Origin: Neptuniibacter caesariensis
GTDB lineage: Bacteria; Pseudomonadota; Gammaproteobacteria; Pseudomonadales; Balneatricaceae
Direction of reading: 5' to 3'
DNA: 64,000 nt
Assembly (NCBI RefSeq): GCF_000153345.1
Contig: NZ_CH724127.1
Location: forward strand, 75,464 to 139,463
The position numbers and the translations under genes were made by a program. Shown in pieces: positions 14,976 to 25,953 of the stretch (within the stretch, counting starts at the first letter, position 1; every line of letters begins with the position of its first letter). The notes below the pieces were generated by a model. The model was not told where the DNA came from and did no database searches. It saw only the letters and a program-made list of their open reading frames with translations.

Positions 14976-15923
14976 TTAGTTTAGCGGCAGTTTTATAGTG
15001 AAGGTAGTCCCTTGACCTGGGGTGCTGTCAACATGAATGTCACCTTTGTGGTCTTGAATAATACTGTGCGCGATTGCCAGTCCCATCCCGGTGCCTTTTC
15101 CAACGGGTTTTGTGGTAAAGAAAGGAACAAATATATCGTTTAAAGTTTCTTGATTCATACCACAGCCATTATCGCTAATGGTGATTCGAATATACTGACT
15201 ATCCGATTCACTTTTTAGCGTTATTGTCGGGTGAGTGACATCATGTGTGGCGTGTTTTGCATTGATTAACAGGTTGAGGATAACCTGATTGAGTTCATTA
15301 AGGTTGCACTCAATCTCAGGAAGAGGGCTCAACTCAAGATTAAGAGTGACACTATTTTTTAGTTCGCTATTAAGTAACTTCAGCGTTGTTTGAATGCCTG
15401 CATTCAGGTCGGATAATTCGCGATCACTCGACTGGGTGCGGGAGAAACTTCGTAAATTCTGAATAATATCCTTGACTCGGCTTAATCCGTCCATTGTATC
15501 CGTCATCAGCTCTGGCAGGTCTTCCTCTATATAATCCAGGTCCTCTACAGCAAAGAGCTTAGTCAGGCGTGTCTGATCTTCTTCAGGTAAATGCGGGGTG
15601 AGTTCTTTGATAAGAGCGATCAACGAAGAATATGCGCTTTGATATTGTAGCAATGACTCAACATTGCTTTTTACAAAGGCCAGCGGGTTATTAATCTCAT
15701 GGGCAATGCCAGCCGAGAGTGTGCCTAAAGTAGCTAGCTTCTCATTATTCAGTATGATGGTTTGCTGTTTTTTTAATTGAGAATAGCTTTCTTCCAGGCG
15801 AACGTTTTTGCTGTATAGCTCTCGGGCTTTATCTTCAAGCAGCTGTTCAGCTTTTAGGCGAGCCTTGCGCTCACGTTCATAGGCCGATTTATAAGGATTA
15901 TTGTCGTCTTCCATCTCATTCAA
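14976..15923 (-). CDS. soluble histidine kinase of the H-NOX operon (HnoK-like)
   Basis: 315 residues with no membrane helix. Residues 1-60 form a charged coiled coil (YERERKARLKAEQLLEDKAR), followed by the HisKA dimer/phosphoacceptor block with H75 in LSAGIAHEINNPLAF. The HATPase domain has the N box LLINAKHA, G1 ISDNGCGM and G2 GKGTGMGLAIAHSI. Its start overlaps the H-NOX gene by 8 bp, so the pair is translationally coupled. In Shewanella and Vibrio, an H-NOX protein regulates autophosphorylation of such a cytosolic partner kinase when NO binds heme. The same role is inferred here. Likely targets are the receiver proteins encoded on both arms of this locus. Confidence 0.87.
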   Translation of the reverse strand: MNEMEDDNNPYKSAYERERKARLKAEQLLEDKARELYSKNVRLEESYSQLKKQQTIILNNEKLATLGTLSAGIAHEINNPLAFVKSNVESLLQYQSAYSSLIALIKELTPHLPEEDQTRLTKLFAVEDLDYIEEDLPELMTDTMDGLSRVKDIIQNLRSFSRTQSSDRELSDLNAGIQTTLKLLNSELKNSVTLNLELSPLPEIECNLNELNQVILNLLINAKHATHDVTHPTITLKSESDSQYIRITISDNGCGMNQETLNDIFVPFFTTKPVGKGTGMGLAIAHSIIQDHKGDIHVDSTPGQGTTFTIKLPLN

Positions 15924-16452
15924 ACCCGATAATCAAATCACAGTGTTCAGCCCTATTATGCATGCATACAGGGTGTTTGATGGTAATGCTTTCTTGGTAG
16001 TGCTTTGCAGCCCCGCGAATAAGTCCCTCAGCGAGTAAGCATAACTTACGTGGTGACGAGTAGCGCATCAATAGCTCTTTATCAGAGATCTCCAGGTAGC
16101 TAAAACTAGGAAGGTTTGGATTGTCGAAAAGTTTCTTAACTTCAATATGGATTACGCCATCGACACTCATCAGGAATGATCGAAGATCCGGTTCGGATTC
16201 AACAAACATAGGGTAGCGTTGTTGCAAGCGGTCAAAAAGAAACTCGCCAAAAGCTCCTACGAGTGTTTCTGTTGCAATACCTGTTTTGTCTGAAATGGCC
16301 TGTACCAGGCGGAATAGCTCGCTATCAGGGTAGCTTTCGCCGGCTGTATAGATGCCATCCATTACGAGTTGATCAAGAATTTCATTCCAGGCTTGCATGC
16401 CACACTGATCAATCACCATCTCTTCAAGAACATTAAAAATAACACCTTTCAT
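15916..16452 (-). CDS. H-NOX heme nitric-oxide sensor
   Basis: 178 residues from ATG 16452, chosen because AGGAG precedes it; the frame extends 32 codons further into the neighbouring receiver gene without homology. All H-NOX hallmarks fall at canonical positions: proximal heme ligand H102 in GVIHIEVKKL, and the propionate-binding YxSxR motif Y131-S133-R135. Position 140 is Leu rather than the distal Tyr of O2-binding members, so it should bind NO and discriminate against O2. C138, H160, C163 and C171 match, with a one-residue offset, the Cys/His zinc site described for Shewanella/Vibrio H-NOX. It is cytosolic and coupled to the following kinase gene. Confidence 0.93.
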   Translation of the reverse strand: MKGVIFNVLEEMVIDQCGMQAWNEILDQLVMDGIYTAGESYPDSELFRLVQAISDKTGIATETLVGAFGEFLFDRLQQRYPMFVESEPDLRSFLMSVDGVIHIEVKKLFDNPNLPSFSYLEISDKELLMRYSSPRKLCLLAEGLIRGAAKHYQESITIKHPVCMHNRAEHCDLIIGFE

Positions 16453-16465
16453 TTTGTTGCTCCTT

Positions 16466-16981
16466 CTAATCTTCAGCTTCGATCCAGCCAAGAGGGTTTT
16501 TCTTGACCTTGGTGATGCTAGGGCAAGCCTGCTCGACCAATTTTTCATACCAAATGAGGTAATCTTCTCTGCTCATACGTTTGCTGTTGGTTTTCAGTAA
16601 GTGTTTTATGGTTTGGCGGTAATGATTGAGCCCCTTATCTATCTGATTAAGAAGCTGACAGTTATCCCAGGGTTTATGGATAAAGTAGTCAATTTTTGCC
16701 TGATTAATTGCTTCTGTCATGCCATATTCACCAGCTTGTCCGCTCAGCATGATTTTATAAGCGTAGGGTTGCAGCTTTTGAAATTCCAATAGAAATTCAA
16801 CTCCGCTCATTTGCGGCATTCGATAATCAGTAATGACAATTGGGAAAAAGACATGTTTCGCATAATCAAGAGCAGTTGCAGGGTGCTTGAATGATATTAC
16901 TTGCCAGTTGTTACGAATGAGCTGCCTCTGTAACGCGTTTAGTACCGAGGTTTCATCATCTAGAATTAATATCTTTTTCAT
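16466..16981 (-). CDS. stand-alone receiver-domain response regulator
   Basis: 171 residues. Receiver domain 1-125 with acidic cluster LDDE, phosphoacceptor Asp (~52) in VITDYRMPQMSG, conserved Ser in IMLSGQAGE and Lys in FIHKPWDN; the KPW form is shared with the other receivers of this locus. The ~45 C-terminal residues are charged and helical and carry no effector domain I recognise. Its ATG overlaps the stop of the upstream receiver/HD-GYP gene (ATGA), and 13 bp separate it from H-NOX, so the four genes form one transcription unit. It may shuttle or buffer phosphate. Confidence 0.85.
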   Translation of the reverse strand: MKKILILDDETSVLNALQRQLIRNNWQVISFKHPATALDYAKHVFFPIVITDYRMPQMSGVEFLLEFQKLQPYAYKIMLSGQAGEYGMTEAINQAKIDYFIHKPWDNCQLLNQIDKGLNHYRQTIKHLLKTNSKRMSREDYLIWYEKLVEQACPSITKVKKNPLGWIEAED

Positions 16982-18324
16982 GATTTTTTACCTTCTGAGA
17001 ATACAAATAGCTCCAGAGGGGTGTGTTCGGTTTTCGCAAAATTAGCCAGCCTCTTTATTGATTCTTTTGTCAGTATATGGCCTTCAGGCAACAGTAATAG
17101 CGCCTTGCCATTGAACACATCGCGCGAGAGTTGCATACCTGCTTTTAATCGATTTATACCGAGAATTTGTTCATTCGACGAGATGGGTGTGTGCCCAAGT
17201 TCTTTGATGAGTTGAGGTAGAATCGCGATAAGCCGGGGGTCATATAGATGTCCCGCATGGCTGGTCAGATATTCAATGGCTCCATTGCTGCTCATTTTAG
17301 TTCGGTATAGGCGGCCTTCTATGGCGAAGATATAGTCGCGGGCAATAGAGAGAGCTTGCGCGCCCGTGGGAACCCCTTCTTTGTTGCGCGCTGATTCAGA
17401 AAACGGCACATATTGGTAGTGTATGTTGTCAGCAACACGCTTCAGTGAAGTTGCTGGTGATAGAGCGGCTCTGGTTTTTGATATGTATTCGAGGTAAATG
17501 CTTTTTTGCTCTGCTGATTGTTCATTTATAGGGCATTGAACAACTGACTCAGGGGCGCTAAGTAGGCCTAGTTGGGATAAAAGGCCTGATAGCTTCAGCT
17601 CTTTACAGGTGATCGATTGTTGATTGATATAAGGGTGAAACAGAGCGCATAGTTCGCTGATTTTAATGGCCTGTTCGCCGCTCAGGTGAGGGTGAAGACT
17701 GATGAGGTTATAAAAAGAGCGGATAGTCGAGTTGAGGTTGCTGCTGATAACGCGATTGGCCGTTTTTAGTCTATTCATGGCCCTAGTTACCTGCTGGGTT
17801 CTCAGTGCAACTTTGTTTTCAAGACTGTTATTTAAATCTTTCAGTTTAGTGTTTTGCTTTTCGATTTGTTTCTGGAGCAATTTGTTGGACTTTTCGAGGC
17901 GAATTCTTTCATCTACTGCTCTTACTGTATGAAGCAGTTCTTCATTATTCCAAGGCTTTTGAATGTATCGAGAAATCCGACCTCGGTTGACTGCAGCGAT
18001 TGTTGATTCAATATCGGAATAGCCAGTAAGGAGTATTCTGTGGGAGTTCGGGTACTGCGTGGCTACCTGGCCCAGAAATTCTGCACCATTTATTTCTGGC
18101 ATGCGCATATCACAAATCACAATATCAAAGTGATTCTTTCTTAAAAGCTCAAAACCTTGCTGGGCACTTAATGCTGTGCTCACTGCATAATGAGGCATTC
18201 TTAAAAGTCTCTGCAGTGATTTAAGGACGTTTTTTTCATCGTCTACACAAAGAATTTTAAGCTCCAGTGCTTGTGGATTCTCACCTTTATGACATTGTTC
18301 TGCTGGGATATTCATGGCTGTCAT
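16978..18324 (-). CDS. receiver + degenerate HD-GYP protein (HnoD-like)
   Basis: 448 residues. Receiver at about 22-140 with phosphoacceptor D72 (ICDMRMPEINGAEFL) and KPW 123-125; coiled coil 140-190; remnant HD-GYP domain ~195-370. The metal-binding HD of the canonical LHDIGK is replaced (LSQLGL, 249-254), and GYP is GVP (317-319). Catalytic c-di-GMP hydrolysis is therefore unlikely. In Shewanella the degenerate HD-GYP partner HnoD modulates the EAL enzyme by protein contact; a similar regulatory role is inferred. It is first gene of the left arm, with GGAGAAG before ATG 18324. A paralogue closes the right arm (24676-25953). Confidence 0.85.
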   Translation of the reverse strand: MTAMNIPAEQCHKGENPQALELKILCVDDEKNVLKSLQRLLRMPHYAVSTALSAQQGFELLRKNHFDIVICDMRMPEINGAEFLGQVATQYPNSHRILLTGYSDIESTIAAVNRGRISRYIQKPWNNEELLHTVRAVDERIRLEKSNKLLQKQIEKQNTKLKDLNNSLENKVALRTQQVTRAMNRLKTANRVISSNLNSTIRSFYNLISLHPHLSGEQAIKISELCALFHPYINQQSITCKELKLSGLLSQLGLLSAPESVVQCPINEQSAEQKSIYLEYISKTRAALSPATSLKRVADNIHYQYVPFSESARNKEGVPTGAQALSIARDYIFAIEGRLYRTKMSSNGAIEYLTSHAGHLYDPRLIAILPQLIKELGHTPISSNEQILGINRLKAGMQLSRDVFNGKALLLLPEGHILTKESIKRLANFAKTEHTPLELFVFSEGKKS

Positions 18325-18474
18325 AATGGCTTCTCCATTTTAAAATTATAAGATTGAGTCTACATAAGATATTCAAATGTCGCAAATGTCATTTAAATTT
18401 TCGTGACAAAAAGGACATTTGTGTATATATTTTGATTCATAATGAATTTTTACTGTCTTATAAGGCCGTTACGA
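18325..18474. promoter_or_regulatory. divergent control region with three CAAATGTC sites
   Basis: The 150-bp AT-rich gap drives both arms of the signalling locus. CAAATGTC occurs at 18374-18381 and 18383-18390 (tandem, 9-bp period) and inverted as GACATTTG at 18414-18421. Such an arrangement fits an operator for a DNA-binding protein; the best candidate is the HTH-receiver protein encoded immediately to the right. The repeats are visible; the regulator assignment is inference. Confidence 0.6.
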
Positions 18475-19062
18475 ATGAAGACTTTTACAACAGGCGAAAT
18501 AGCTAAATATTGTGATGTAAACCTCAGGACGGTCATACGTTGGATAGAGAAGGGTGAGCTGAAAGGTTTCAAGCTACCAGGAAGGGGCAATAACAGGGTA
18601 AAAGAGGAAGATTTTATTAACTTTCTTCGTCGTTACGATATCCCTTTTCCTGAAGAGCTAAAAACACATGCATCTAATAACAGTATCTTAATTGTGGATG
18701 ATGAAGTGCAAGTGGCTAAGGCCATTAAGCGAGTTTTAAAAGGGGCCGGTTATTCGACTTTACTTGCCCATGATGGTTTCAAAGCCGGGAGCCATTTGAT
18801 GAAAGAGCGTCCAGGCCTGATGACCCTGGATTTGAGTATGCCGGGATTGGATGGTTACGATGTGATTCGTTTTGTCCGCGAAGCACCTGTGGTTAGCCAA
18901 ACTAAAATTCTGGTTATTTCTGCATTGGACAAGCCTGCATTGGAAAAGGCTATAGAGTGCGGTGCAGATGCTTACTTGCAGAAGCCATTTTCGAATTCTG
19001 AGCTTCTAAGTGCGGTTGAATTACTTCTTGATAGTCCGCAACAAAGTTCAATAGCGGGCTGA
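18475..19062 (+). CDS. HTH-receiver transcriptional regulator (HnoC-like)
   Basis: 195 residues from ATG 18475 (MKTFTTGEIAKYCDVNLRTV); the frame could start 11 codons earlier, but this start has AAGG upstream and begins the domain. Residues 3-55 are an excisionase/MerR-type winged helix (TGEIAKYCDVNLRTVIRWIE ... RVKEEDFINFL). Residues 70-190 are a receiver with D119 (TLDLSMPGLDG) and a conserved K in YLQKPFSN. The order DNA-binding first, receiver second is unusual among response regulators. In Shewanella the HTH regulator HnoC controls its own NO-response genes. By position it probably binds the repeats at 18374-18421. 16 bp separate it from the next gene. Confidence 0.85.
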   Translation: MKTFTTGEIAKYCDVNLRTVIRWIEKGELKGFKLPGRGNNRVKEEDFINFLRRYDIPFPEELKTHASNNSILIVDDEVQVAKAIKRVLKGAGYSTLLAHDGFKAGSHLMKERPGLMTLDLSMPGLDGYDVIRFVREAPVVSQTKILVISALDKPALEKAIECGADAYLQKPFSNSELLSAVELLLDSPQQSSIAG

Positions 19063-19078
19063 GTTGCAGGGGGAAACC

Positions 19079-21046
19079 ATGAATACAATGCCTATTCTAA
19101 TCGTAGATGATGATCCTTCCATTTTAAGGGCCTTAAAACGAATATTCCGCCGTGAAGGTTATTCTGTCTATGCTGCTTTGGGTGCTAAAGAGGCATTGGA
19201 TTTAATGGGTGATAGGCAATTCCCTCTCATTATCACTGACTTTCGAATGCCTGAAATGACAGGTGCTGAATTACTCATTGAGGCAAAAAAAAGAAACCCT
19301 AAGGTTCTTGGTATCGTGCTCAGTGGTCTTGCAGATATGCAATCGTTAATATTTTCACTTAATAGTGGGGCGGTGCATCGTTTTCTGGAAAAGCCATGGG
19401 ATGAAATTGAGCTAGTAACTGAAGTAAAGAATGCTTATGAGGAATTAAAGAAAAGCCACTCTCCCTTCAGGAAGCAAGATAACCAGGGTGATAAATTATC
19501 AATTAATATTGATCAGTTCGGATTCATAGCAAGCAGCGAAACTAATGTTCATCAATCACTCATCGGTAGTCAGGTAAGTAGTATTGTCGCAGGTATCGAT
19601 GAAAAGGTACTTGGGCGAATTTGCTTATCCGATCCCGTGAAGTATGAATATACAGAACCTTTGTCTGGGATGGTGGTGAATATTTCAGCAGTGCCTGAAG
19701 CGTACAATTTATGGCAGTTGGAGATTGTTTGCTCAGGCGAACAAGCGCTATTGCAGAAGGGAATTATCTCTAAACAGCAGTTCTCAGAACAGATAACGGA
19801 GCAGCTGTCCGCGGGCCAACAGTTTGCATTGTTCTATCTAGATATCGCTCGCTTCAAATATTTTAATGAACATCTTGGTTACAAAGAAGCTGACCTGCTA
19901 CTTGCTCACTTGGCGCAGATATTAGTTAGTAACACACAATCCGATGTTTTGTTGGCGCAGATGAATGGCCCTGAGTTTGCGATGCTTGTTCCGGGGGTAA
20001 CGAGCGAAGAAAGCGCTCAGGATCATATCAGGCAGATTATGGAACCTTTTAATCAACTGATTGCATTTGGTCAGCGTGAGATACATTTGGCTTTTAAAGT
20101 CGGTTTCGTGCTTGCGCCGGAAGATAGTGATGATGCTGACGCGCTGATCCGAAATAGTATGAAGGCTATGTTGCAGGGGAAGCAAAAAGGTGGCAATGAG
20201 CCAAAAAGGTTTTCGCCAGCCATTAGTCGGGACTCTGAGGATTTAATCAAGCTTCAAAGTGATCTTTTCAGGGCGTTGGAAAGAGATGAATTCTCAGTGG
20301 TCTACCAGCCTAAAGTCTCTCTGGTAGACGGTTCTATTCTTGGAGCTGAAGCATTATTGCGTTGGAAGCATGAACAGCTAGGGTTTGTTTCTCCAGCCCA
20401 GTTTATCCCCATGGCGGAAGTGAGTGGGTTAATTGAACCTATTGGTGAATGGGTGTTGAGTACCGCTAGCTCTCAAAGCCGATTCTGGGCTTTAGAGGGT
20501 CTTCCGCCATTCTCTGTTGCAATTAATTTATCGGGTCGACAGTTAATGGAGGACTGTTTACCGCACAAGGTAGCCCAGATTATCTCCCACAATGAGCTGG
20601 ATCCTTCACAGATAGAACTTGAAGTCACAGAGACATTCTTGATGCAGGATATTGAGCATAGCATCGAAATGCTGAATGAGATCAGAGAATTAGGAGTGAA
20701 AATCTCAATTGATGACTTTGGTACAGGTTATTCATCGCTTAATTATCTGACGAAATTACCGGTCGATACTCTCAAAATTGATCGTTCCTTTATTAAAGAA
20801 TTATCAATTAGGGAGGAGGTTTTTCGACTAGTAAAAAACATGGTGGGAATGGCTCATGACTTAGGACTCACTGTTGTTGCTGAAGGTGTAGAGACTAAAT
20901 GTCAGTTGGATATTTTAAAAGAGATCGATTGCGATGAAGTCCAAGGATTTTACTACAGTCCTCCTGTATCGGCCGATAAATTTAGGAATTTACTGCTTAA
21001 GCAGCCCTTGATAGGCTGTCGTTATTCCGCAATGGAGGCAGGATAA
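19079..21046 (+). CDS. receiver-GGDEF(degenerate)-EAL phosphodiesterase (HnoB-like)
   Basis: 655 residues from ATG 19079 (AGGGGGA upstream); an in-frame TTG at 19064 is less likely. Receiver ~1-120 (phosphoacceptor in IITDFRMPEMTGAELL, KPWD). A middle region ~145-230 looks PAS-like but weak. The GGDEF domain's active motif is NGPEF, so no cyclase activity is expected. The C-terminal EAL domain is intact: GAEALLRW, EVTETF, IDDFGTGYSSLNYL, KIDRSFI, VAEGVE. Expected reaction: hydrolysis of c-di-GMP to pGpG, switched by phosphorylation. It corresponds to HnoB of the known NO network. It is followed 3 bp later by the HDOD gene. Confidence 0.87.
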   Translation: MNTMPILIVDDDPSILRALKRIFRREGYSVYAALGAKEALDLMGDRQFPLIITDFRMPEMTGAELLIEAKKRNPKVLGIVLSGLADMQSLIFSLNSGAVHRFLEKPWDEIELVTEVKNAYEELKKSHSPFRKQDNQGDKLSINIDQFGFIASSETNVHQSLIGSQVSSIVAGIDEKVLGRICLSDPVKYEYTEPLSGMVVNISAVPEAYNLWQLEIVCSGEQALLQKGIISKQQFSEQITEQLSAGQQFALFYLDIARFKYFNEHLGYKEADLLLAHLAQILVSNTQSDVLLAQMNGPEFAMLVPGVTSEESAQDHIRQIMEPFNQLIAFGQREIHLAFKVGFVLAPEDSDDADALIRNSMKAMLQGKQKGGNEPKRFSPAISRDSEDLIKLQSDLFRALERDEFSVVYQPKVSLVDGSILGAEALLRWKHEQLGFVSPAQFIPMAEVSGLIEPIGEWVLSTASSQSRFWALEGLPPFSVAINLSGRQLMEDCLPHKVAQIISHNELDPSQIELEVTETFLMQDIEHSIEMLNEIRELGVKISIDDFGTGYSSLNYLTKLPVDTLKIDRSFIKELSIREEVFRLVKNMVGMAHDLGLTVVAEGVETKCQLDILKEIDCDEVQGFYYSPPVSADKFRNLLLKQPLIGCRYSAMEAG

Positions 21047-21049
21047 AGA

Positions 21050-22150
21050 ATGGATGGCTTTATGGACAAAGGGCGAGTCTTGTTTGTTGATGATGAAACG
21101 CAAGTTTTACGTTCGTTAAAGCGTGCGTTGCGATTGCATTGCAAAGAATGGGAGCTGTTTTTTTTCTCTTCTCCTGTCCAGGCTTTATCTGAATTAACTG
21201 AGCTAAAGCCTTGGGTGATTGTGTCTGATAAAAAAATGTCAGAGATGTCTGGGGAGGATTTTTTGCTACAGGCGAAAGAGATCTGGCCTGATAGCGTACG
21301 GGTTATTTTAACCGGCGATACCAGTCAGGATTCTGCCCTTGTGTCACTGCGTTCAGCGCATCTTCTTTTACCTAAACCTTTTGAACTCGATGAGTTGCTG
21401 TCTGCGCTCAAAAGTGCGGTTTGCTTGCGCAGTTTCAGTCTGGATGCAAATACCCGCTCAGAACTTGGTGGCTTACAAACTCTTCCGGTATTGCCGAGAG
21501 TATACCAGCAACTCGTATCTTACTTAGATGCGGTGGAACAGCCGGATAACGATCATATTGCAAAACTAATCAGTAGCGATGTTGCTGTTTTAACGAAAGT
21601 TATTCAGTTAGCAAACTCCTCTTTCTTTGGTTTTTCGCAGCCGGTTTATGACGCCAAAGATGTCATTGTGCGTTTGGGCCATGATCTGATTAAAAAAATG
21701 CTCTTGGTTACTGGTCTCTTTAATTCAGTTGTTAATCAGAATGAAGCTGAAAAGTTTTTTAACACGGCAATCAGCGTTGCCGAAAAAGTCCGTGAATTAG
21801 CAATTTTAGCGGGTCAGGTTGGAGACGATATAGAGCGAGCATATTTTTGTGGTCTTTTGCACAATTTAGGATGCTTGGTGAAGGAGGCGAATAATTCATT
21901 GCTTTCAACTGACTTGGTTGGTGCTTTTATCCTACAGCTATGGGGATTTGAAACCACAGTTATTAATGCTGTTCGCTATCAGTCTATGCCGGAATCCTCA
22001 CCGGATGCAGAGAAATTGGTATACCAATTGTGCATAGCTAAAACGCTGGTAAATGAAGAAAAACAGAACCTCACTTATTCTGAAGTTCTTGCTTCGATTG
22101 ATGAAGGCCGAGTCGAAAAGGCGGGTTTAATTGCTTACTTGAGGAAATAA
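21050..22150 (+). CDS. receiver-HDOD signalling protein
   Basis: 366 residues. Receiver domain 8-125 (LFVDDETQVL, phosphoacceptor in IVSDKKMSEMSGEDFL, Thr in VILTGDTS, KP in LLPKPFEL), then an HDOD domain ~135-340 (LPVLPRVYQQL, VAVLTKVIQLANSSFFGF, VIVRLGHDLIKKMLL, FCGLLHNLGCLV). HDOD is an HD-superfamily fold that has lost metal ligands and usually acts by protein binding. The partner here is unknown; another component of the island is the simplest guess. Tight spacing (3 bp on each side) places it in the same operon as the EAL and PhnD-like genes. Confidence 0.85.
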   Translation: MDGFMDKGRVLFVDDETQVLRSLKRALRLHCKEWELFFFSSPVQALSELTELKPWVIVSDKKMSEMSGEDFLLQAKEIWPDSVRVILTGDTSQDSALVSLRSAHLLLPKPFELDELLSALKSAVCLRSFSLDANTRSELGGLQTLPVLPRVYQQLVSYLDAVEQPDNDHIAKLISSDVAVLTKVIQLANSSFFGFSQPVYDAKDVIVRLGHDLIKKMLLVTGLFNSVVNQNEAEKFFNTAISVAEKVRELAILAGQVGDDIERAYFCGLLHNLGCLVKEANNSLLSTDLVGAFILQLWGFETTVINAVRYQSMPESSPDAEKLVYQLCIAKTLVNEEKQNLTYSEVLASIDEGRVEKAGLIAYLRK

Positions 22151-22152
22151 TT

Positions 22153-22971
22153 ATGAAAACAAAGTATGTGATCCTATGGATGCTTATCGGTTCTGTAAGC
22201 CCGCTTGCTTGTGCGGATACACTCACTTTAGGTATTGTCCCGCAACAATCGGCAAAAAAACTTGCCCGTTTATGGACTCCAATCACTGGGTATTTGAGTG
22301 AAAAGGCAGGAGTAAAAATTACTTTTTCGACTGCGCGAGATATTCCTACCTTCGAAAAAAGGTTATTGGCAGGGGAGTATGATATCGCGTATATGAACCC
22401 CTATCATTTTACTGTTTTTAATCAGAAGCCGGGCTATCAGGCTTTGGCTAAACAAAAAGATAAGGTTATTAAAGGCATTGTAGTCGTGGCTGAAGACAGC
22501 CCGATACAATCGTTGCAAGAGTTGGATGGTACTTCCCTGGCTTTTCCATCCCCTGCCGCATTCGCCGCTAGTGTGCTGCCTCGGGCAAAAATGACTCAGG
22601 ATGGGATTAACTTTTCTCCAAAGTATGTTTCTTCACATGATTCAGTGTATCTGACTGTATCCAAAGGTTTATTCCCAGCGGGTGGTGGAGTCATGAGAAC
22701 CTTTAATAATACCGATCCAAAGGTGCGGGAAGGTTTAAGAGTACTTTGGACGACTCCTGGCTATACCCCGCATGCTATCGCGACACATCCCGATCTGAAT
22801 GAGGAAACGCGTCTCAGAATACAGCAAGCGCTTCTCTCAATGAATACGGATCCACAGGGGCAGAAGCTATTGAAAACTATCAATTTTAAGGGGATTGAGG
22901 TTGCTTCAAACGCCGATTGGGATGATGTAAGAGCGCTTAATATCAAGCTTTTGCAACATCTGCTGGACTGA
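22153..22971 (+). CDS. PhnD-like periplasmic binding protein, probable sensor subunit
   Basis: 272 residues. Signal peptide 1-21 (MKTKYVILWMLIGSVSPLACA), then a type II solute-binding fold of the phosphate/phosphonate PhnD group: LTLGIVPQQSAKKLARLW, YDIAYMNPYHFTVF, SLAFPSPAAFAASVLPR and ADWDDVRALNIKLL. No PhnC ATPase or PhnE permease is nearby. Instead it sits in a two-component operon, 40 bp before a membrane histidine kinase. In other systems a PhnD-like protein presents a ligand to a kinase. That role is inferred; the ligand is unknown. Confidence 0.8.
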   Translation: MKTKYVILWMLIGSVSPLACADTLTLGIVPQQSAKKLARLWTPITGYLSEKAGVKITFSTARDIPTFEKRLLAGEYDIAYMNPYHFTVFNQKPGYQALAKQKDKVIKGIVVVAEDSPIQSLQELDGTSLAFPSPAAFAASVLPRAKMTQDGINFSPKYVSSHDSVYLTVSKGLFPAGGGVMRTFNNTDPKVREGLRVLWTTPGYTPHAIATHPDLNEETRLRIQQALLSMNTDPQGQKLLKTINFKGIEVASNADWDDVRALNIKLLQHLLD

Positions 22972-23011
22972 ATCTGACAGCTCTGCTGTTTAGTAAGGAG
23001 AAGGGCATAGT

Positions 23012-24649
23012 ATGTCACTCAGGCTTAAAACAATCATAGGTATTGCTGCGATAGAGGCTGTTCTTCTATTGCTTCTGGTTTCTATGACGCTTGATTACCT
23101 GAGAACAACGAACTATGAGGGCATTGTTAAGCGTGCCTCGACAACCGCGACCTTATTCGCAACAACAGCAAAAGATGCCGTACTGAGCTATGACCTGGCA
23201 TCGCTTGATGCATTTGTAAACGAAGTGTTGAAAAACCCGGACCTGGTGTACGCCAGGGTGCTAGGGCCTGATCAGCAGTTGTTTGCCGAAGCGGGAATGC
23301 CAGAAGCTCTGTCAGCAGATTTTGCAGCGGATCAAGAGGTTGAATCTGTTGATGATGGGATCTTCGATACCTATGCGCTAGTGGCAGAAGGGGGCGTTGT
23401 CTATGGCCGGGTTGAGCTTGGTTTAGATATTAACCTTCTTCGTCAAACCATTGCTGAGGCTGAACAGCGAAGTGCATTAATTGCCGCGATGGAGATGGGA
23501 TTGGTGGCGCTGTTTTCCTTTATTTTAGGAACCTACTTAACCAGGCAGTTACAGGGGCTTAGAAAAGGGGCACAGCAGATATCAGCGGGTGAGCTGGATA
23601 TCAACATACCGGTCAAAGGGAAGGATGAAATTGCAGATGTAGCTCGGGCATTTAATGTGATGGCATCTGATCTTGAAGAGGCCAGCAGGCGGAGGGATCA
23701 ATATGAGGCGGAACTTGAAGAGCTGAATCGCTCCCTTGAAGACCGTGTAAAGCAGCGAACTCATCAGTTAGTCGAGAAGAACAAAGAGCTACTTCAGGCA
23801 AATGATGAGATTAAGAAAACTCAGGCAAAACTGGTGCAGTCAGAAAAAATGGCGTCTGTCGGTGTGCTGGCTGCGGGGGTTGCACACGAGATCAATAACC
23901 CACTTGGTTTTGTGATGAGTAATCTCTGCACTTTAGAAGAGTATGTGAAGAATTATCGTGAACTACTGGGTGCGTATGAAACGCTGTTTAGCTTAAAGGA
24001 TAGCCAGGAGCGTAAAGCTCAATATGCGAAAATCAAAAGCTTAGTGGAAGAGTATGATCTGGCTTTTATGAATGATGATTTAGATGATCTGCTCAAAGAT
24101 ACCCACGAAGGATCTGTTCGTGTTAAGGAGATCGTAAAAGGGTTAAAAGCGTTTTCTCATGTTGATAGTACTGAGGAGATGCAGCTTACAGATCTCAATG
24201 AGTGTATTGAAACAACACTTAAAGTTGCTAACAACGAGATTAAATACCATTGTGAGATCATTACTGATCTGGGAGATATACCGCAGATAAACTGCATCCC
24301 TGGGCAGATTAAGCAAGTGCTTCTCAATATGTTATTGAATGCGGCCCATGCGATAAAAGAGCAGGGGCGTATTGAAATCGCTTCCGTTTTTCGTGAGGAA
24401 GCAGTGGAAATTAGCATTCGTGATAATGGTTGCGGTATTGTGAAGGATGAGCTTGGACGCTTGTTTGAACCTTTCTTTACCACTAAAGAGGTGGGGAAGG
24501 GGACAGGCCTGGGTTTATCCATTTCCTACGGTATTATTGTGGATGATCATCATGGTGATATCCGTGTGGAAAGTGAATTGGGCATGGGTAGCTGTTTCAC
24601 AATTGTGTTGCCAATCAATAAATCAGAAGTTGTCCAGGAAGCAGGGTAG
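23012..24649 (+). CDS. membrane sensor histidine kinase
   Basis: 545 residues. TM1 about 8-30, periplasmic domain ~31-150, TM2 about 153-173, HAMP ~175-228 (KDEIADVARAFNVMASDLEE), coiled coil 228-285, HisKA with H292 in LAAGVAHEINNPLGF, and HATPase with LLNAAHA, IRDNGCGI and GKGTGLGLSISYGI. The kinase core is closely similar to the H-NOX-linked kinase of the left arm, including the HEINNPL box, hinting at shared receiver targets. The periplasmic domain is small and probably senses through the PhnD-like protein encoded before it. AAGGAG precedes the ATG. Confidence 0.88.
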   Translation: MSLRLKTIIGIAAIEAVLLLLLVSMTLDYLRTTNYEGIVKRASTTATLFATTAKDAVLSYDLASLDAFVNEVLKNPDLVYARVLGPDQQLFAEAGMPEALSADFAADQEVESVDDGIFDTYALVAEGGVVYGRVELGLDINLLRQTIAEAEQRSALIAAMEMGLVALFSFILGTYLTRQLQGLRKGAQQISAGELDINIPVKGKDEIADVARAFNVMASDLEEASRRRDQYEAELEELNRSLEDRVKQRTHQLVEKNKELLQANDEIKKTQAKLVQSEKMASVGVLAAGVAHEINNPLGFVMSNLCTLEEYVKNYRELLGAYETLFSLKDSQERKAQYAKIKSLVEEYDLAFMNDDLDDLLKDTHEGSVRVKEIVKGLKAFSHVDSTEEMQLTDLNECIETTLKVANNEIKYHCEIITDLGDIPQINCIPGQIKQVLLNMLLNAAHAIKEQGRIEIASVFREEAVEISIRDNGCGIVKDELGRLFEPFFTTKEVGKGTGLGLSISYGIIVDDHHGDIRVESELGMGSCFTIVLPINKSEVVQEAG

Positions 24650-24675
24650 GTTATGACGCAAATTAAGGGAAATAT

Positions 24676-25953
24676 ATGAATTACAAGAACTATACGGTGA
24701 TGCTCGTTGATGATGAGCAGCCCATTCTTAATTCGTTAAAGCGTCTGATTAAACGTTTGGGTTGCAACATAATTACCTTTACCTCGCCGCTTGATGCACT
24801 GGAGGCGTTAAAGGGCACCTCAGTTCAGTTGGTCATCAGTGATATGCGCATGCCTGAAATGGGAGGTGAGGTTTTTCTGGAGCAGGTAGCGAAAAGTTAC
24901 CCGGATATAGAACGTGTCGTTATTTCAGGCTATGCCGATGCCCAGGCGACGATTGATGCAGTTAATCGAGGAAAAATAAGTCGCTTTTTGTTAAAACCCT
25001 GGGAAGATGAGGATGTTTTTAAAGTTGTCGAAAAGGGCTTGCAGCTTGCGTTTTTACGTGAGGAAAACCTTCGTTTACAGGAAGAAACAGAAGCAAAAAA
25101 TAAGCAGCTGAAACAGTTAAATCAAGGGCTGGAAGAGAAAGTTAAAGAACGGACGCAGCAGATCATACAGGCAAACGATCGGCTAAAGACCAACTATCGT
25201 TCTGTGGTCCGTATGTTCTCAGCGTTAGCTACTCGCCGCCTTGGTGTGAGAGCATCGGGTGAGAATATTAAGTTGAATAAAATTCTGTTACTGGTTGCGA
25301 GTAAAACGGGATTAAAAGATCAGGATTTGAAGCAGCTTTATTACGCGTGGCAACTGAGGCAGATAGGCAAACTCAGCTTCTCTGACGAGTTGATCAAAGA
25401 ACCCTATTTAAAATTAGGGGCTGAGCAACAGAGGGAGTTTCAAAATCATCCTCTATTGGCTCAAGCCGCTTGTTTAATGGTTAAACCGCTCTACCCCGCC
25501 GGGAAAATCATTTTGCAGCATAAGGAATATCTTGATGGCAGTGGTTACCCTAAGGGAATTAAAGGTGAGGAAATTACCTTCCGGGCCCAGGTGCTAGCGG
25601 TCGTTAACGATTATGTAGAGCTTATTCATGGGCTCTATGACGAGCGCGAATACAGTACTGATGAAGCCATAACCTATCTAAGTGACAAGGCCAAAGAGAG
25701 ATATAATCAGGATGTGGTTGCACTATTAGCGAGAGTTGTTGAGGAGCTTTCAAAGTCTGGAGATACGCTCAATGATAAAGCTGTTTTTAGTGATCAGTTA
25801 AAGCCAGGGATGAAGCTGAGCAGGGATCTGATCAGTGGTGATGGAATGTTGTTATTGAGTGCTGATCAGGTGTTGGATGGAGTTGCTATCGAACGTATCC
25901 GTGAGATGGAGTTCAACCTTGATGAAACATTCAAAGTTTATGTCTCTCAATAG
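24676..25953 (+). CDS. receiver + partly degenerate HD-GYP protein
   Basis: 425 residues. Receiver 5-125 (VMLVDDEQPILNSLKRL, phosphoacceptor in VISDMRMPEMGGEVFL, LKPWED), coiled coil 130-175, HD-GYP-like domain ~180-355. The GYP motif is kept (DGSGYPKGIKG, GYP 290-292), but the HD metal pair is replaced: LRQIGK at 227-232 where LHDIGK is expected. c-di-GMP hydrolysis is therefore doubtful, although binding may persist. It shares architecture with the left-arm protein at 16978-18324 and probably arose by duplication. It ends the right arm. Confidence 0.85.
   Translation: MNYKNYTVMLVDDEQPILNSLKRLIKRLGCNIITFTSPLDALEALKGTSVQLVISDMRMPEMGGEVFLEQVAKSYPDIERVVISGYADAQATIDAVNRGKISRFLLKPWEDEDVFKVVEKGLQLAFLREENLRLQEETEAKNKQLKQLNQGLEEKVKERTQQIIQANDRLKTNYRSVVRMFSALATRRLGVRASGENIKLNKILLLVASKTGLKDQDLKQLYYAWQLRQIGKLSFSDELIKEPYLKLGAEQQREFQNHPLLAQAACLMVKPLYPAGKIILQHKEYLDGSGYPKGIKGEEITFRAQVLAVVNDYVELIHGLYDEREYSTDEAITYLSDKAKERYNQDVVALLARVVEELSKSGDTLNDKAVFSDQLKPGMKLSRDLISGDGMLLLSADQVLDGVAIERIREMEFNLDETFKVYVSQ

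Follow-up and report, generated by a model that had tools for sequence, protein, structure and literature searches.

Does a locus that joins a nitric oxide (NO) sensor to a second, periplasmic sensor work as one signalling switch, or do two separate systems share an address? The question is raised by positions 14976-25953 of a 64,000-nucleotide stretch of the 3.92-Mb genome of Neptuniibacter caesariensis (contig NZ_CH724127.1; hereafter the window), where ten open reading frames (ORFs) lie in two divergent arms (Table 1). According to Pfam, the minus arm encodes a kinase (K1), an H-NOX protein, a lone receiver (RR) and a receiver (REC)-HD_5 protein (HDG1), and the plus arm encodes HTH_17-REC (HnoC-type), REC-GGDEF-EAL, REC-HDOD and Phosphonate-bd (PhnD-like) proteins, a HAMP-HATPase kinase (K2) and a second REC-HD_5 protein (HDG2), closely spaced with gaps of 1, 3, 2, 40 and 26 bases. 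A first-pass annotation had described ten genes in these two arms, all of which were found, and each of its domain calls was confirmed by Pfam; its count of five receivers has to be raised to six. Its view that all counterparts of the Hno proteins of Shewanella sit in one locus is borne out by domains, order and lengths, and the second kinase with a periplasmic binding protein that it reported is present as a membrane-bound kinase and a PhnD-like gene. Comparison of these genes with their relatives leads us to propose, with a probability of roughly 0.68, that the locus is one self-regulated, Hno-type cyclic di-GMP (c-di-GMP) switch with two inputs, NO and a periplasmic ligand. Counted in favour of this proposal are the own-genome kinase that best matches K1, namely K2, the partnership of PhnD with K2, a conserved site upstream of hnoC, and the linkage of H-NOX to the locus.

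By analogy with Shewanella, H-NOX without NO would let K1 phosphorylate the EAL enzyme, turning it on, together with the degenerate HD-GYP inhibitor or inhibitors, which would leave the EAL enzyme, and the HnoC-type repressor, which would leave DNA; as a result of phosphorylation of these targets c-di-GMP would fall. NO-bound H-NOX would stop K1. K2 would act likewise, answering a ligand reported by the PhnD-like protein docked on its Cache-like domain. The HnoC-type repressor would bind TGTC-N5-TGTC at both divergent promoters and so make the whole locus a self-regulated unit. Binding of HnoC to the site, the phosphotransfer map, the effect of NO and the PhnD ligand are what we infer in this scheme.

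The gene set recurs. Loci are coded L and genomes G here, some loci of two sets being the same place (e.g. L047 and L112), and genes were labelled by their BLAST matches to the window proteins, a procedure that diverged genes can escape. The H-NOX survey covered 57 genomes, the own genome included, and gave 37 matches in 30 of them; the 36 neighbourhoods besides the window were fetched and their ORFs labelled, several stopping at contig ends. Within the genus, 8 of 11 genomes (own included) place a kinase-H-NOX pair next to genes for REC-HDOD, PhnD, a membrane kinase and REC-HD-GYP, so the set is not a matter of chance; of the other three, G002 has a different H-NOX locus, G006 carries its H-NOX elsewhere, and in G008 no H-NOX was found. 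The complete ten-gene set is present in 3 of the 11 (the window, L049 and L056), and the lone receiver recurs in L049, L056, L089, L093, L047, L048 and further loci. The context search for H-NOX, PhnD and HDOD thus returned a recurrent arrangement: these genes and K2 share one stretch in 10 of the 37 matches (the window, L037, L038, L039, L043, L047, L048, L049, L055 and L056), L034 being excluded for its weaker matches to all four. Since gene content is conserved and the same putative operator stands on both arms, also when they are split, the arms do not look fortuitously adjacent.

A second set was built around hnoC and comprised the best 80 of 98 confirmed loci, with no Shewanella among those 80; context counts use the 67 that span at least 18 kb. 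PhnD (at least 40% identity) is found in 47 of these 67 and H-NOX in 18, both in 16, and both together with HDOD in 5. Outside the genus, PhnD and H-NOX stand beside hnoC in Pontibacterium, Neptunomonas, Amphritea, Marinobacterium, Paraglaciecola and Aliiglaciecola. At the level of genomes, H-NOX is encoded in 44 of 49 genomes from the hnoC set versus 26 of the 369 genomes of a class sample; in Alteromonas genomes with fetched H-NOX surroundings it occupies a separate locus (L175-L178).

The second input is kept as a pair. The K2 sensor domain goes with PhnD (at least 40% identity) without exception, in 47 of 47 hnoC loci that span 18 kb or more and in 50 of 50 when every length is counted. 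Elsewhere the pair precedes a GGDEF protein (L082), GGDEF-EAL proteins (L079, L084) or hybrid kinases (L071, L073, L074, L078), and with such varied outputs PhnD-K2 looks like a portable receptor. The model of the PhnD-like protein (mean predicted local distance difference test, pLDDT, 96) is matched by Foldseek to PtxB, ArrX, AioX and XAC2383, with template modelling scores of 0.81 to ArrX and 0.80 to XAC2383, and the nearest solved sequence is ArrX; the predicted fold is thus like that of phosphite/phosphonate binders and of the sensors ArrX, AioX and XAC2383. The last of these is reportedly, going by a paper title, part of a receptor-cyclase pair (XAC2383-XAC2382) with a PhnD-like signalling protein. 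The AioX pocket includes Ser161, Ser163, Cys106 and His192 (PMC5908839, in excerpt). By alignment, Ser-x-Ser is replaced in the PhnD-like protein by A115-F-A117 and Cys by N61, the His being kept, and these pocket residues are invariant across 30 relatives in the family alignment. The Ser-x-Ser plus Cys signature of AioX, ArrX and ArxX is therefore not present in this protein; arsenic or phosphate is weakened as a candidate ligand by the substitutions, and the ligand is probably not bound as arsenate or phosphate are. The PhnD equivalog model TIGR03431 scores 97 bits, under its cut-off of 261, and Pfam finds no ABC transporter domain among the ten locus proteins. In the K2 model (pLDDT 90), the N-terminal part is a Cache-like domain between two long helices, whose fold matches are mostly weak and include the sensor domains of WalK, CdgS9 and CitA.

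The two arms also appear to share a control site. The 117-base gap between them holds CAAATGTCGCAAATGTC and, inverted, GACAAAAAGGACA. Upstream regions of hnoC longer than 100 bases numbered 93, counting that of the window, and were reduced to 77 by removal of 16 near-duplicates. Twenty-seven starting points, including 25 random ones, led a motif search of these 77 to TGTCRCAAATGTCRCAtwTG, or to its shifts or reverse complement. Its core, the 9-bp tandem TGTC-N5-TGTC, occurs in 61 of the 77 regions, against a mean of 0.38 and a maximum of 3 in 200 dinucleotide-shuffled sets, and among spacings of 1-13 only 5 is enriched, the others occurring in at most 2 regions. Other upstream regions of the same loci carry the site in 49 of 1004 cases, 42 of which lie within 330 bases of the hnoC start. 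The 7 farther off are in L047, L048, L130, L091, L101, L124 and L169: in the first three, the minus-arm operon stands apart from hnoC with its own site before it, and in L091 the site precedes an EAL-HDOD-PhnD-K2 operon and is missing at hnoC itself. In nine H-NOX loci without hnoC, a description that holds for the locus as hnoC may sit elsewhere in the genome, the intergenic site was found in 0 of 9 (L034, L037, L038, L045, L051, L054, L055, L060, L174), and three of the nine carry TGTC-N5-TGTC within a gene. The best plus-arm promoter-like match, GTGACA-17-TATATT at 18403-18431, belongs to a class of matches no commoner overall than chance; the minus-strand site overlaps its -35 hexamer, a placement as expected for repression. 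The site is probably that of the locus's own HnoC-type repressor, putative as this operator is, and because the same site stands at both arms, also at separated ones, the arms look like one regulon. S. oneidensis HnoC is a tetramer that binds an inverted repeat.

Searches beyond the gap gave little more. The own genome contains TGTCRCAWATGTC once exactly and 7 times with one mismatch, which is below its reversed control (22), and a large HnoC regulon was rejected; only the local site stands out. Within the window alone, AAATGTCRCAAATGTC at up to 3 mismatches gave 3 matches against a chance mean of 1.37, which is no evidence, and with the in-window count near chance the operator evidence is its conservation across loci. 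At L101:4571 (Marinobacterium sediminicola) an extra site precedes the gene of a receiver protein that matches HD-GYP weakly, possibly a further regulon member.

The kinases were compared both within the genome and across loci. K1's best own-genome match after itself is K2, at 224 bits, the next being 151. In a tree of 80 kinase cores, with bootstrap not fully settled and several long branches, K1 is one of 16 H-NOX-linked kinases that form a clade (support 99/94), and K2 sits in another clade (95/97), where 27 of the 31 rows are PhnD-linked. A recent K1/K2 duplication was rejected on account of these separate clades, and the two kinases look like old partners, each inherited with its sensor. 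The residues of the dimerization and histidine phosphotransfer domains, inspected by eye, were judged uninformative.

Table 1. Features of the divergent locus in the window (coordinates are window positions)
Feature	Position	Strand	Evidence
K1, soluble histidine kinase, HnoK counterpart	14976..15923	-	HATPase_c and HisKA; no recognised sensor domain
H-NOX, HnoX counterpart, 178 aa	15916..16452	-	HNOB 145 bits
Lone receiver (RR), tail of about 50 aa	16466..16981	-	Response_reg 62 bits
HDG1, receiver and apparently degenerate HD-GYP, HnoD counterpart by place and length	16978..18324	-	HD_5; NF053512 408 bits (cut-off 400)
Putative tandem operator TGTC-N5-TGTC, minus-arm side	18378..18390	+	only exact TGTCRCAWATGTC in own genome
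Putative tandem operator, opposite orientation, GACA-N5-GACA	18405..18417	-	overlaps -35 of best plus-arm promoter-like match
HTH_17-receiver regulator, HnoC counterpart	18475..19062 (ORF opens 18442)	+	Pfam
Receiver, degenerate GGDEF and EAL phosphodiesterase, HnoB counterpart	19064..21046	+	Pfam, motifs; 660 aa
Receiver-HDOD protein	21050..22150	+	Pfam; probable SO2538 counterpart
PhnD-like periplasmic binding protein	22153..22971	+	Phosphonate-bd 214 bits
K2, membrane histidine kinase, PDC/Cache-like periplasmic domain and HAMP, in the place of HnoS	23012..24649	+	Pfam, model
HDG2, receiver and apparently degenerate HD-GYP, second copy	24676..25953	+	NF053512 460 bits

Several observations weigh against a single two-input switch. 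The genome samples are phylogenetically non-independent, and of the 8 class-sample genomes where hnoC has a strong match (above 140 bits), just 3 also have H-NOX and 5 do not; the H-NOX-hnoC link is strong in the best 80 of 98 hnoC loci but not universal. In otherwise similar loci, hnoC is missing (L037, L038, L055), or the REC-EAL gene (L039, L043), or, in some, the minus-arm receivers, so that no single output is obligatory. The K2 sensor domain occurs in 14 of 20 PhnD neighbourhoods of the class sample; it was not seen beside PhnD in L077, L080, L083, L085 and L086, L072 has no labelled ORF, and in the hnoC loci L147 and L150 a 28% PhnD match stands without it. K1 and K2 belong to separate lineages, and 9 of 25 H-NOX-linked and 3 of 30 PhnD-linked kinases fall outside the main clades. 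Among the 37 own-genome matches, self counted, the HDOD receiver ranks 11th and the HnoC-type 28th in similarity to the EAL receiver, whose closest relative is off the locus. Finally, the exact site is absent from 16 of the 77 hnoC upstream regions, including L091, L090 and L134.

Within the locus only HDG1, RR and HDG2 are near the EAL receiver, and receiver similarity was not used as proof of convergence. The off-locus receiver closest to it belongs to a 266-aa protein with a tail that is PAS-like by eye (L210:1081-1881, own genome C5:234125; 87 bits), possibly an extra target or competitor.

The separate lineages count in favour of a rival reading, two insulated two-component systems that share only a promoter region and a repressor, K1 serving the minus-arm receivers and HnoC, and K2 serving HDOD and HDG2. 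Each arm does have its own degenerate HD-GYP regulator, and most Alteromonas loci keep a K2-type kinase with a REC-HD-GYP gene while lacking the minus arm. Set against this, RR and HDG1 are absent beside K1-H-NOX in L037, L038, L039, L043 and L055, and in these five genus members K1 must therefore use plus-arm receivers or none nearby; moreover, the published kinases HnoK and HnoS share targets (PMC6335343, in excerpt). Insulation of the two systems is thus regarded as unlikely, at well below half the weight of the single switch. It is more doubtful still that the PhnD-like protein is a leftover of transport that gives no signal to K2, which would sense its ligand directly through the Cache-like domain: Neptuniibacter sp. 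CAU 1671 (L137) has K2 with its sensor domain and no PhnD beside it, three Alteromonadaceae loci (L117, L122, L125) lack both PhnD and the membrane part, all four kinases belonging to the K2 clade, and some class-sample PhnD relatives sit without the K2 sensor domain, but the 50 of 50 association given above, the strongly conserved pocket and the precedent of AioX-type sensing proteins (PMC5908839, in excerpt) speak against it.

The single two-input switch also agrees with the residues of its sensor and output proteins. The H-NOX start is most likely the ATG at 16452, giving 178 amino acids (aa), rather than the longer ORF start, and H102, Y131-S-S-P-R and a C/H/C/C set align with the solved H-NOX structures 2KII, 4U9B and 4U99 (best E 1.6e-51); we take the C/H/C/C set to be the zinc site, and H102 and the Y131-x-S-x-R residues to have their usual roles. 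K1, which adjoins H-NOX, has kinase domains only by Pfam, with no sensor domain of its own seen. The EAL protein retains EALLR, DDFG, KID, AEGVE and QGF, leaving its EAL motifs intact, with NGPEF in place of GGDEF. An HD or HH dipeptide is missing beyond residue 130 in both HD-GYP proteins (a motif check, made with no alignment to an active enzyme), and the GYP motif is GVP in HDG1 and kept as GYP in HDG2; both look degenerate. Residues 2-144 of HDG2 are identical to PDB chain 2RJN, a protein of N. caesariensis. In the HTH-receiver, RTVIRW and FKLPGRGNNR are common to all eight aligned proteins, and its two nearest named loci among the best 80 of 98 are from Neptuniibacter.

How much of this is new depends on S. 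oneidensis, where we take SO2539, SO2540 and SO2541 to be HnoB, HnoC and HnoD. The excerpt of a clone-set table gives 370 aa for SO2538, 658 for SO2539, 192 for SO2540 and 441 for SO2541, and the window counterparts follow in matching order: HDOD 366 aa, EAL 660, HTH-receiver 195 (from its likely ATG) and REC-HD-GYP 448. Going by gene numbering and lengths, the window probably has the output core of S. oneidensis, with HDOD as a part of it. The HDOD gene, which the first-pass annotation had counted as an addition, is thus probably old, as SO2538 is numbered beside SO2539 just as HDOD adjoins the EAL gene here. In S. oneidensis, the kinases HnoK (NO) and HnoS act on HnoB, HnoC and HnoD (PMC6335343, in excerpt), so that two inputs on one EAL enzyme, offered earlier as new, had already been published. 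Phosphorylation of HnoC relieves repression of the hno regulon, and V. cholerae appears without hnoC in the excerpt of the same source (PMC8738867), which corrects the earlier placing of HnoC in Vibrio. Both systems have H-NOX with a soluble kinase, an EAL protein, an HTH-receiver, a degenerate HD-GYP protein and two kinases; they differ in that SO2144 (H-NOX) lies apart from SO2538-SO2541, in the genes as excerpted, whereas here all share one locus, and in the PhnD-like protein with its membrane kinase, the second degenerate HD-GYP and the lone receiver found here. Of the enlarged arrangement described at first, the PhnD-like/membrane-kinase input thus stands as a difference, whereas a second kinase and probably HDOD were already known. 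The idea of the first-pass annotation holds in outline, but its core had already been published for S. oneidensis; what is new, judged from sequence, is the exchange of the second input and the site common to both arms. No description of PhnD with H-NOX, or of a PhnD-type binding protein with a histidine kinase and c-di-GMP, was found in the literature searched, and absence from print is not claimed.

Other systems share single elements. For Pseudoalteromonas atlantica, Patl_1532-1534 are listed as H-NOX, one kinase and one regulator (PMC8738867, in excerpt), probably the same arrangement as in Paraglaciecola and Aliiglaciecola loci, where hnoC-PhnD-K2-HD-GYP lies next to kinase-H-NOX; these loci are L108, L115, L129, L148, L149, L155, L156 and L165. 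Burkholderia nosRPK likewise combines a degenerate REC-HD-GYP, a sensorless kinase and an accessory NO sensor (PMC12570481, in excerpt), and NF053512 matches both HD-GYP proteins of the window; unlike NosP-NosK-NosR, the window locus has no FIST (NosP-type) protein, none being found among its ten proteins, and the genome's one FIST match is on another contig. NosP reportedly modulates the S. oneidensis network, as the title of Nisbett 2019 has it. The arsenic sensors AioX and ArrX also use a PhnD-like binding protein for signalling (PMC5908839, in excerpt); AioX, ArrX and XAC2383 differ from the protein here in an identity of about 20% and in Ser-x-Ser and Cys, where it has Ala-x-Ala and Asn.

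Variants of these loci were observed in passing. The own-genome FIST gene (L188:5840-11432) lies off the hno locus, by eye between two large PAS/kinase/receiver-like proteins, with alcohol dehydrogenase and pyrroloquinoline quinone-synthesis-like genes nearby. In Rheinheimera L146, a FIST protein and a soluble kinase flank the same core, in the slot that the PhnD-like protein and the membrane kinase occupy in the group of the window; L151 is alike by place and length, the Pfam scan for FIST being of L146. A 121-aa receiver, a CheX/CheC-like protein (label scanned in L146 only) and a kinase stand beside the core or after it in L146:3751-6030 (Rheinheimera) and L134:13766-16022 (Marinobacterium), and SO2547, a 121-aa receiver, suggests a like set in S. 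oneidensis. A second H-NOX locus type in the genus (L034, L045) has H-NOX with a hybrid-kinase-sized protein and, on the divergent side, REC-HD-GYP, a PhnD-like protein (40-43% identity) and a second hybrid-kinase-sized protein; by gene content it is an H-NOX/PhnD link with different kinases. In L040, a 1054-aa protein with PhnD-like (25%), GGDEF and EAL parts is divergent from an H-NOX-kinase pair. L041, L163 and L166 combine an HnoC-type gene, REC-HD-GYP and a 449-aa receiver protein, which in L041, the one locus scanned, is a sigma54 activator, with kinase-H-NOX adjoining in L041 and L166; by their genes these are another output set on the same core.

A wider and more tentative idea, held at somewhat under even odds, is that the hno core acts like a plug-board: its second kinase slot would take either NosP with a soluble kinase or a Cache-type kinase with a periplasmic binding protein from an undescribed, non-oxyanion subfamily, and a single repressor, through its 9-bp tandem operator, would hold whatever modules are there in one feedback loop, so that NO and an extracellular ligand would be weighed on a single c-di-GMP phosphodiesterase. 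The signal of HnoS is left unresolved, with another stimulus possible (PMC6335343, in excerpt), whereas the second kinase here comes with an encoded binding protein, so that a ligand screen can be used to look for its signal. In the PhnD-like subfamily the conserved pocket is unlike those of known oxyanion binders. With the conserved site, in turn, HnoC control can be tested directly across many genomes, and further hno loci can be found by a simple sequence marker.

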